This document shows, piece by piece, positions 38,404 through 40,901 of a stretch of DNA of 40,901 bases (positions within the stretch are counted from its first letter, which is position 1; every line of letters begins with the position of its first letter). The notes under the pieces were generated by a model. It saw only the letters and a list, made by a program, of their open reading frames with translations. It made no database searches and was not told the origin of the DNA. The position numbers and the translations under genes were made by a program. The DNA comes from Oceanispirochaeta sp. (lineage in GTDB: Bacteria > Spirochaetota > Spirochaetia > DSM-2461). The DNA lies in the NCBI RefSeq assembly GCF_027859075.1, contig NZ_JAQIBL010000124.1:1-40901 (forward strand). The letters are read 5' to 3'.

Positions 38404-39408
38404 TTACTGGAAGTCTATAAGTTCTATATCAAATATAAGCCAGGATCCCGGGGGGATGGGGCCGTAACCCTTTTCACCATAGGCCAGGGCGGGAGGTAGT
38501 ATGATGGTTCTCTTTTCTCCAGCCTGCATGCTCAGGGCTGTTTCGATCCATCCGGGTATGACTCCGTCTCTGCCGATAACAAACTGAAAGGGCTCTCCTC
38601 TCATATAGGAATTATCAAATTCTTCACCCGAGAGGAGTCGGCCCGAGTAATGCATTCGGACGGTATTCCCGGGACGGGGCTTTCCACCTTTTCCCTCATT
38701 TATGATCTTAAAGAATATTCCTGTTTCAGATTCCTCAACACCATCGCCCAGTTGGTCCAGTAACAGTGCTACTTCTGGATATTCATCGGCAAAGGCCTGT
38801 CTGGATTCAATCCGGGCCTGCATGATCATATCCCGAACCACAGTATCATCCGGGCTGAAGGACTCGGCTTTGCTTCCTATCCTTATGATCTCAACCGAAT
38901 TGATGATGTCCCCTCTTTTCAGCTTGGAGAGAGTCTTTTCCCCCGTAATAAGCTGTCCGAAGGTCGTATATTTCTGGTCCAGAAAGGGATCGCCATTGAT
39001 CATGATCATAATCTGGCTACCCTGGTCTTCGTTCTGACGGGAGACCATGACCAGTGAACCGGGAGTTCCGGATGAAAGGACAGATCCTTTTTCCCGGGGG
39101 ATGGTATAATCCACGGGAGTATCGGGATCTCCCAGAAAGAGGGCATAACCCTGAACTTCCCTGTAGATCTTTTGATTCGTATAGTAAGGACCCTCTGAAT
39201 CGGCAATTTTCATCTTGCCTTCTGCCAGAGCCACAAAATTGGACACCGTCCTGGGAAGCTGCTCATAGTCCAGACGGTACAGGAGCGCACCACTTGGGGA
39301 GAGGAATCGTGCATAAAGACCCGGAGGAAGGGGGTCTTCCTGAGCCGTGAGCATCAGGGGACTTAACAGCAGTATCAATATAAGAAACCATAGGGTTTTC
39401 TGTTTCAT
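38404..39408 (-). CDS. Exported cyclophilin-FKBP fusion, cyclophilin half degenerate
   Basis: A 334-residue exported protein: signal peptide (MKQKTLWFLILILLLSPLMLTAQ), a cyclophilin-like domain at about 30-190, and an FKBP domain at about 230-334. The FKBP domain is complete: VRMHYSGRLLSGEEFDNS, PFQFVIGRDGVIPGW, and [37 protein letters not shown]. The cyclophilin domain lacks several active-site residues compared with its neighbour at 39446: QGGDP is [12 protein letters not shown] is QGSQIMIM, and the WL-KHT segment is FLDQKYTT. So only the FKBP half is likely to isomerise proline peptides. It could still serve as a periplasmic chaperone. GGAGA precedes the ATG, and it lies 37 bases after the paralogue. 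Confidence 0.85.
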   Translation of the reverse strand: MKQKTLWFLILILLLSPLMLTAQEDPLPPGLYARFLSPSGALLYRLDYEQLPRTVSNFVALAEGKMKIADSEGPYYTNQKIYREVQGYALFLGDPDTPVDYTIPREKGSVLSSGTPGSLVMVSRQNEDQGSQIMIMINGDPFLDQKYTTFGQLITGEKTLSKLKRGDIINSVEIIRIGSKAESFSPDDTVVRDMIMQARIESRQAFADEYPEVALLLDQLGDGVEESETGIFFKIINEGKGGKPRPGNTVRMHYSGRLLSGEEFDNSYMRGEPFQFVIGRDGVIPGWIETALSMQAGEKRTIILPPALAYGEKGYGPIPPGSWLIFDIELIDFQ

Positions 39409-39445
39409 TCTTGTCTCCAGGCCTTTATTATATTAAAAAAATTTA

Positions 39446-40474
39446 TCAGAAATCGAGGAGTTCCACTTCAAAAACCAACCATGCATCGGGAGGAATCACT
39501 CCGCCTGCTCCTCTGCTGCCATAGGCCATTTCGGGGGGTAGGATGATGGTTCGTTTTTCGCCTTTTTTCATATCAAGAATGGTTTCGTCCCATCCTGAGA
39601 TAACACGTCCGCCTCCGGCAGGAAATTCGAAGGGAGTTCCCCGGGCAACAGAACTGTCAAAGGTCTTTCCATCCATAAACATTCCTGTGTAATGAACTTT
39701 TACATTGGTACCGACTGTCGGTTTGGCGCCGCTGCCTTCTTTTTCGACAATAAAGTGAATTCCCGATTTAGAAACCTGGGCCTCGGGCCATCTTTTACTT
39801 ATTTCTTCCAGAATACCTTTCTGAGCTTCTTTTTTCTTTCTCATCTCTGCTCCTGCGAGGTCTTCCAGGGCTGCATCGAAGGCTTTCTGGTCGTTTTTAA
39901 AGGCTTTAGCCGATGCTCCAACCCTGATGATTTCCATCGTATTGATCTTGTCATTTGCCTTGATGCTGTCTACGACCTTCTGGCCTTCCAGAACCTGTCC
40001 GAATATGGTGTGTTTACCCTGTAGCCAGGATGTTTCCACATGAGTTATAAAGAACTGACTTCCGTTTGTTCCCGGGCCTGAATTGGCCATAGCCAGAATT
40101 CCGGGTCCGTTGAACTGAAGGGAGTTATCAATTTCATCGGGGAAGTTATATCCGGGGCCGCCGGAACCTGTTCCCGTGGGGTCTCCTCCCTGAACCATAA
40201 AATTATCAATGACACGGTGGAATTTAATACCGTCATAGTATTTACCCTTCCGGTTTGATTCAATCTTTCCTTCCGCCAGACCGGTAAAATTAATGACAGT
40301 CAGGGGAGTTTTTTCAAATTCAAGGTTAAGAAGAATCTCTCCCCTGTTGGTATCGATAAGGGCATAAAGCCCGTCTTTCAGTGAATCTCTATCTATTGCA
40401 ATTGCACTCATAGTTGTTGTCATGAGCAGCACGCCTGCCAGCAGAACTGTTTTGAGGGTGTTAAGCTGCTTCAT
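39446..40474 (-). CDS. Exported cyclophilin-FKBP fusion, both halves intact
   Basis: A 342-residue exported peptidyl-prolyl isomerase. The signal peptide ([20 protein letters not shown]) is followed by a cyclophilin domain with [25 protein letters not shown] near residue 80, [31 protein letters not shown] near 130, and a helical linker of Glu, Lys and Ala. An FKBP domain follows ([18 protein letters not shown], then [15 protein letters not shown], and [33 protein letters not shown]). Both catalytic sets look present. It probably helps folding of exported or surface proteins. GGAGG lies five to six bases before the ATG. It heads the operon with its degenerate paralogue and radA. Confidence 0.93.
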
Positions 40475-40630: not shown

Positions 40631-40659
40631 TTGACAGCCCAGGAAGAAGCCTATAAAAT
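40631..40659 (+). promoter_or_regulatory. Strong promoter of the phenylalanine leader
   Basis: A perfect TTGACA (40631-40636) and TAAAAT (40654-40659) are 17 bases apart. The predicted transcription start, near 40665-40669, falls at or just before the leader ATG, so the leader RNA may have almost no 5' untranslated region. An overlapping TATAAA at 40652 with a 15-base spacer is less good. Confidence 0.6.
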
Positions 40660-40668
40660 TACAAAATT

Positions 40669-40749
40669 ATGAGAAATCCGAAATTCTTCTTTATCTATTT
40701 TTTTAACTTTTTCTTTTTTACCAGAAGGGTAACCCCGGGGCTTTCATAA
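40669..40749 (+). CDS. Putative phenylalanine-rich leader peptide
   Basis: A 26-codon open frame from ATG 40669 to TAA 40747-40749. Nine of the codons are phenylalanine, clustered as three, two and four in a row between residues 6 and 17, with Ile, Tyr and Asn between them. The upstream frame closes at a stop at 40654, so ATG is the only start. The form resembles the leader peptides of pheA and pheST in enterobacteria, where ribosome stalling at Phe codons controls a terminator. Against it, no ribosome binding site is near: AGGAAGAAG is 20 bases upstream, so translation would have to be leaderless or weak. The T-rich DNA also biases the frame to Phe. Too short to confirm by sequence alone. 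Confidence 0.5.
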   Translation: MRNPKFFFIYFFNFFFFTRRVTPGLS

Positions 40750-40787
40750 AGAACGGATGTTCATAAGAGCCGCAGAGGGTTTCCTTA
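40725..40787 (+). promoter_or_regulatory. Possible antiterminator pairing
   Basis: AAGG and AACCC (40725-40735) can pair with GGGTT and CCTT (40777-40786), with a small internal loop. This uses the 5' arm of the downstream terminator, so the two structures exclude each other. A ribosome near the leader stop codon would cover the 40725-40735 arm and favour termination, whereas a stall at early Phe codons would leave it free. Confidence 0.4.
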
Positions 40788-40814
40788 TAGGAGACCCTCT
40801 GCGGCTCTTTTTTT
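40766..40814 (+). terminator. Strong rho-independent terminator, likely attenuator
   Basis: AGAGCCGCAGAGGG (40766-40779) pairs perfectly over 14 bases with CCCTCTGCGGCTCT (40795-40808), and the inner TTTCC/GGAG bases extend it. The stem ends in a tract of seven T (40808-40814). No T run follows on the minus strand, so it acts on plus-strand RNA. It starts 17 bases after the leader stop codon, about 100-150 bases from the predicted transcription start. Confidence 0.85.
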
Positions 40815-40847
40815 GCATCATTAAGTTTTTTGATGTGGGAGGTATGT

Positions 40848-40901
40848 TTGGTCGTGGGGAATCTTTCTACTATGCGCAGTGCCTCACGTTATATATATGA
40901 G
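40848..40901 (+). CDS. Possible 5' end of the attenuated gene, cut by the window
   Basis: An open frame that continues past the end of the window. The best start is TTG 40848, five bases after GGGAGG (40837-40842); ATG 40833 and ATG 40872 are in the same frame. Eighteen residues are visible and none identifies a family. A second frame from ATG 40844 closes at 40900, so the choice is not certain. Expected products for a Phe-controlled gene include prephenate dehydratase, DAHP synthase or PheS. Confidence 0.3.
   Translation, partial: MVVGNLSTMRSASRYIYE

Follow-up and report, generated by a model that had tools for sequence, protein, structure and literature searches.

Organisation of the locus

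The window analysed here is one whole contig (C124) of 40,901 nucleotides from an Oceanispirochaeta sp., and the element of interest lies close to its right-hand end, on the plus strand. It is preceded by a divergent gene for a cyclophilin-FKBP fusion (39446-40474, minus strand). The minus strand carries two such genes in tandem at 38404-40474, each encoding a cyclophilin domain fused to an FKBP domain. On the plus strand, a TTGACA-17-TAAAAT promoter occupies positions 40631-40659 and matches the consensus at 11 of 12 bases (TTGACA at 40631-40636, a 17-nt spacer, TAAAAT at 40654-40659). Nine nucleotides separate the end of the -10 box from the ATG of a leader peptide ORF, MRNPKFFFIYFFNFFFFTRRVTPGLS (40669-40749, plus strand), which lacks a Shine-Dalgarno sequence and is predicted to be leaderless or nearly so. 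Nine of its 26 codons specify Phe, the richness in the codons of the regulated amino acid that is expected of a short attenuator ORF. These candidate control codons are leader codons 6-8, 11-12 and 14-17 (40684-40719, plus strand), and the stop codon lies at 40747-40749. Both the promoter and the 26-codon frame with nine Phe codons had been recorded in the initial annotation and are present as described. Dinucleotide shuffling produced no equally Phe-rich ORF, either in 2000 trials on the final 301 bases or in 5000 on 40661-40760.

The downstream gene was found through comparison with relatives, since the window is a single contig. The homologous region was found in five other genomes of the genus, and all five share one gene order: the divergent cyclophilin-FKBP gene, the promoter, the Phe-rich leader, the terminator, pheS and pheT. 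The downstream genes were assigned by NCBIfam (pheS, TIGR00468; pheT, TIGR00472). The genome to which the window belongs has a single pheS, located on another contig (C123), and the junction between leader and pheS falls in the contig gap. Read in the same direction, C123 starts with CATTATAATTAAAGGGC, 52 nt upstream of the pheS start, and comparison with a congener (G002) identifies this as the sequence expected 3' of TTTTTTTGCATCATTA in the window. The initial annotation had proposed identification of the downstream gene as a check, and the gene proves to be Phe-related, as pheS followed by pheT in the five congeners and, across the gap, in the genome itself. The operon downstream thus concerns the same amino acid as the leader.

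The last bases of the window do not belong to this arrangement. After GCATCATTA, which ends at 40823, the window leaves the sequence of its relatives, and the roughly 78 bases that follow (40824-40901, plus strand) lie outside the switch and occur at this place in no congener. A search for this tail elsewhere in the same genome, in relatives and in plasmids gave no match, and the overlap between C124 and C123 is limited to 5 bp, CATTA. The tail may be an insertion between the attenuator and pheS with a 5-bp target duplication, or it may be an assembly artefact. The open frame running off the window, which the initial annotation had placed at the end of the element, was considered as the regulated gene and rejected: pheS lies on C123, and the tail that carries the frame is foreign to the leader-pheS junction and unrelated to the switch.

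RNA segments and the predicted switch

From the start of the leader to the T tract, the transcript can be divided into four segments. Segment 1 (40667-40680, plus strand) is the 5' end of the leader, from the start codon to codon 4, and acts in the predicted folds of the six genus genomes as a 1:2 protector that pairs with the end of the ORF. Segment 2, AAGGGTAACCCCGGGGCTTTCATA (40725-40748, plus strand), overlaps the leader stop codon and forms the 5' arm of the antiterminator; its nine-base core, CCGGGGCTT, is invariant in the genus. The apex of the antiterminator stem, GAAC-NNNN-GTTC (40751-40762, plus strand), has invariant arms in all six genomes. Segment 3, AGAGCCGCAGAGGGTTTCC (40765-40786, plus strand), contains the invariant GAGCCGCAGAGGGTTTC and serves both as the 3' arm of the antiterminator and as the 5' arm of the terminator. 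Segment 4 (40789-40814, plus strand) is the 3' arm of the intrinsic terminator together with the T7 tract (40808-40814).

The antiterminator pairing at 40725-40786, as proposed from the first reading of the sequence, folds at a predicted -23.1 kcal/mol. The terminator (40765-40809) reaches -40.8 kcal/mol; the hairpin with seven T was correctly seen at that stage, its stem being 18-21 bp rather than the 14 bp then given. Compared with shuffles, the 170-nt region has a fold z of -7.2. The locus thus has an intrinsic terminator placed after the leader ORF and ahead of the structural gene, and a mutually exclusive antiterminator that uses the terminator's 5' arm, a feature that is weak in one other genus (g3).

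Taken together with pheS-pheT downstream, the conserved parts and equivalents in six family groups, these features support the original reading of the element, which is very probably a ribosome-mediated transcription attenuator of the phenylalanyl-tRNA synthetase operon pheST. The start of transcription, the stalling and the regulation are deduced from the arrangement of these parts. Transcription would start at, or at most about 4 nt from, the leader AUG, and ribosomes would load straight onto this 5' AUG without a Shine-Dalgarno sequence. With charged tRNA-Phe plentiful, the ribosome would pass the nine Phe codons, reach the stop codon at 40747-40749 and mask segment 2; segment 3 would then pair with segment 4, and RNA polymerase would stop at T7. 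With charged tRNA-Phe scarce, the ribosome would stall at the Phe codons between codons 6 and 17 and mask segment 1, leaving segment 2 free. Free segment 2 could then pair with segment 3 while segment 4 is still to be made, forming the antiterminator (40725-40786) and allowing pheST to be transcribed.

Folding of the RNA downstream of a stalled ribosome, with the polymerase only at segment 3, gave the antiterminator at -23.5 kcal/mol for stalls at codons 6-14 and at -16.3 kcal/mol for a stall at codon 17. As soon as segment 4 has been made, the terminator greatly exceeds the antiterminator in stability. Given a difference this large, the outcome must be decided kinetically, while the RNA is being transcribed, as it is in classical attenuators.

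An alignment of six genomes of the genus, including that of the window, was used to follow the conservation of these parts. TTGACA, the ATG, the core of segment 2, GAAC....GTTC, the invariant part of segment 3 and the T tract are the same in all six. Segment 4 drifts and segment 3 is fixed, the pattern to be expected of a segment 3 constrained by two pairing partners. A like antiterminator fold using the terminator's 5' arm was found in 6/6 genomes, including the diverged G005, and in each of them the first leader codons are predicted to pair with the last part of the ORF. In the antiterminator alignment, 92.4% of cells are paired, against 30-53% when the alignment is slid, and three pairs changed on both sides; the covariation is modest, the observed scores being reached in 31-43 of 500 shuffles. 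In the terminator alignment 92.6% of cells are paired, with one-sided changes only. Of the conservation that the initial annotation had looked to relatives for, the Phe-rich frame, both structures and the position of the stop codon are thus kept in the genus; compensatory change is modest for the antiterminator, and no two-sided change was found in the terminator.

It is extremely improbable that another sensor of uncharged tRNA or Phe, such as a T-box or a riboswitch, acts on this terminator. Synthetase genes of Firmicutes are commonly under T-box control (PMC1262725), but here the RNA from the start site to the terminator is about 150 nt long and largely consists of the Phe ORF. Rfam searches gave no match in the window at the gathering score, the T-box covariance model included, and none in nine leader loci at E values up to 0.1. 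A DNA-level reading was also considered, in that GAACNNNNGTTC resembles a Gram-positive LexA box. The RNA reading was preferred, as the same bases form the antiterminator apex in 6/6 genomes of the genus.

Distribution of the leader and its predicted leaderless design

Regions upstream of pheS were screened for ORFs starting with ATG in which Phe accounts for no fewer than 6 residues and no less than 20%. Within the class, such a leader precedes 24 of 42 bacterial-type pheS loci, whereas shuffling these regions produced one in 46 of 4200 cases. The 24 loci represent 11 genera in six family groups (f1, f4, f6, f19, f24 and f31). The same screen found no Phe-rich leader at any of the 20 archaeal-type pheS loci of the class, and none that was convincing at the 27 pheS loci examined in other classes of this phylum. 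Bacterial-type pheS without a recognisable leader also occurs in the class (g4, f5, f7, f21 and f22). The leaders have 20-29 codons, 6-11 of them Phe. For 23 of the 24 loci, the scan detected an intrinsic terminator with a T tract after the leader and before pheS, and in the last one (G009) a GGCTCCCTCAAGGGAGC-like hairpin followed by T8 is visible by eye. An antiterminator on the 5' arm of the terminator is predicted in most of the other lineages.

A second genus of the same family (g2) has a weaker leader in four genomes (L051, L040, L035 and L052; for example MTFRSVYSLFTGFIFSG...), with a terminator detected in three. It appears as a degenerate Phe/Tyr version, MTFRSVYS.F..FIF..., and perhaps the attenuator of this genus is relaxing, or answers to two amino acids.

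These data bear on the reading of the hairpin as an ordinary terminator or bidirectional insulator, with a Phe-rich frame produced by chance in a T-rich tract. The hairpin alone is indeed an excellent intrinsic terminator, nearly palindromic, and the leader tract is 42% T. It cannot be the end terminator of the cyclophilin-FKBP gene, however, because the flanking genes point apart, and this divergence leaves no gene end for the hairpin to terminate. The leader frame is the richest in Phe in 25 of 25 leaders, where it holds 216 Phe and the other two frames 108 and 127; the test is partly circular, the leaders having been picked for Phe, but the proper yardstick is given by the alternative frames, which read the same T-rich tract. 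With a leader kept before pheS in six families and absent before archaeal-type pheS, this reading is highly improbable. Fortuitous Phe codons in a T-rich tract, the main doubt raised in the initial annotation, are rejected by this frame test and the shuffle controls.

The second common feature of the leaders is the position of the promoter. In all 25, the end of the -10 box lies 8-12 nt before the ATG, the promoter matches at 11 or 12 of 12 bases and the -35/-10 spacing is constant; in five genomes, promoter spacing marks an inner ATG as the correct leader start. A Shine-Dalgarno sequence was sought before the leader ATG and was absent in all 25, while most pheS starts have one. A TA-like -10 box about 10 bp upstream of the start codon is a mark of leaderless genes in bacteria (PMC3160421), and the leaders have this layout throughout. 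From the promoter spacing, transcription is predicted to start 0-4 nt before the leader AUG. Given a -10 box 8-12 nt from the ATG and no Shine-Dalgarno sequence, the leader ORF is therefore predicted to be leaderless. The element could instead be a Phe attenuator whose leader ORF has a normal 5' UTR made from an upstream transcription start. Upstream promoters are possible, yet a near-perfect sigma-70 promoter stands at a constant 8-12 nt in 25/25 leaders that have no Shine-Dalgarno sequence, and a normal 5' UTR is considered unlikely.

When the six genus genomes were searched with a strict promoter-ATG pattern, the only short ORF of leaderless type that occurred in all of them, showed a strong amino-acid bias and preceded a related gene was the pheS leader. 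The layout TTGACA-TACAAT-7 nt-ATG was also observed for a conserved gene of 92 codons (MIKSFKHKGLEQFFISGSKKGI...) at L229 and L233 (in G002 and G000), which is likely another leaderless gene of the genus.

Related systems, evolution and significance

In E. coli, pheM encodes a Phe-rich leader peptide, and a choice between antiterminator and terminator is made before pheST. The pheST attenuator is known in gamma-proteobacteria (PMC1262725). The spirochaete element resembles this pheM-pheST system in its operon, its Phe-rich leader and its antiterminator/terminator choice. It differs in its host and in a leader ORF that is predicted to be leaderless, and, judged by the lack of an Rfam match, the two appear to share no sequence family. 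Attenuator RNA that begins at the AUG of the leader ORF has been described for Sinorhizobium meliloti trpL (PMC7298713), and the Corynebacterium glutamicum ilvBNC leader is treated as leaderless (PMC11857589). Both resemble the RNA start predicted here at the leader AUG, but they respond to Trp or to branched-chain amino acids and control biosynthesis operons, whereas the spirochaete leader would sense Phe and control a tRNA synthetase operon, and belongs to another phylum. The uORFC-13-1 motif upstream of aroF has been proposed to contain a uORF reading Phe codons beside a terminator (PMC8632094). It shares the Phe-codon uORF next to a terminator, and differs in its gene (aroF), in having only one or more Phe, and in its structure.

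Known cases of leader-peptide attenuation come from Proteobacteria, Actinobacteria and some Firmicutes (PMC2965389, PMC1262725). A literature search that covered few subscription papers returned no account of the element in spirochaetes, and an earlier description is possible. The novelty seen in the initial annotation holds as far as the phylum is concerned. It is narrowed in that pheST attenuation itself is classical, and what is distinctive is the predicted leaderless leader ORF, which that annotation had missed.

Replacement of PheRS by the archaeal type has been reported in spirochaetes, where most genomes of the class use the archaeal type (Andam and Gogarten, PMC3191353). Among the class relatives, the attenuator accompanies the bacterial type only. 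In a PF01409 search of the class Spirochaetia, bacterial and archaeal PheS types were found side by side in single family groups (f4, f25 and f31 among them), a pattern that is patchier than a single archaeal replacement would give. On a quick PheS tree, five changes of leader presence are needed; because the tree has many open forks and some long branches, gain and loss of the leader cannot be told apart on it. Joint transfer of attenuator and pheS from the nearest non-spirochaetes was considered and rejected, as Bacteriovoracaceae, which are among these, are without a convincing leader. In the PheS tree, the pheS of Desulfogranum marinum falls inside a spirochaete clade. Upstream of it (L107, 199-345) lies TTGACA-17-TATATT-10-ATA CAA AGG GTA TAT TTT TTC CTC TTT CTC, followed by an GGCTCCCCATGGGGAGC-T6 terminator, and this element is perhaps a transferred leader whose start ATG has turned into ATA.

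Overall, the spirochaete clade that keeps the bacterial-type PheRS probably carries a conserved leaderless Phe attenuator before pheST, with a near-consensus promoter, a 5'-end AUG for 70S ribosomes to read and a three-way RNA switch, which is absent with the archaeal-type PheRS. If true, Spirochaetes would gain their first described family of leader-peptide attenuators, and tRNA synthetase operons their first leaderless one. A conserved spirochaete family widens the known range of leader-peptide attenuation, and its predicted leaderless design poses the question of how a ribosome on a 5'-terminal AUG keeps up with RNA polymerase over about 150 nt. Its limitation to the bacterial-type enzyme would also provide a regulatory marker for the archaeal PheRS replacement in spirochaetes (PMC3191353).
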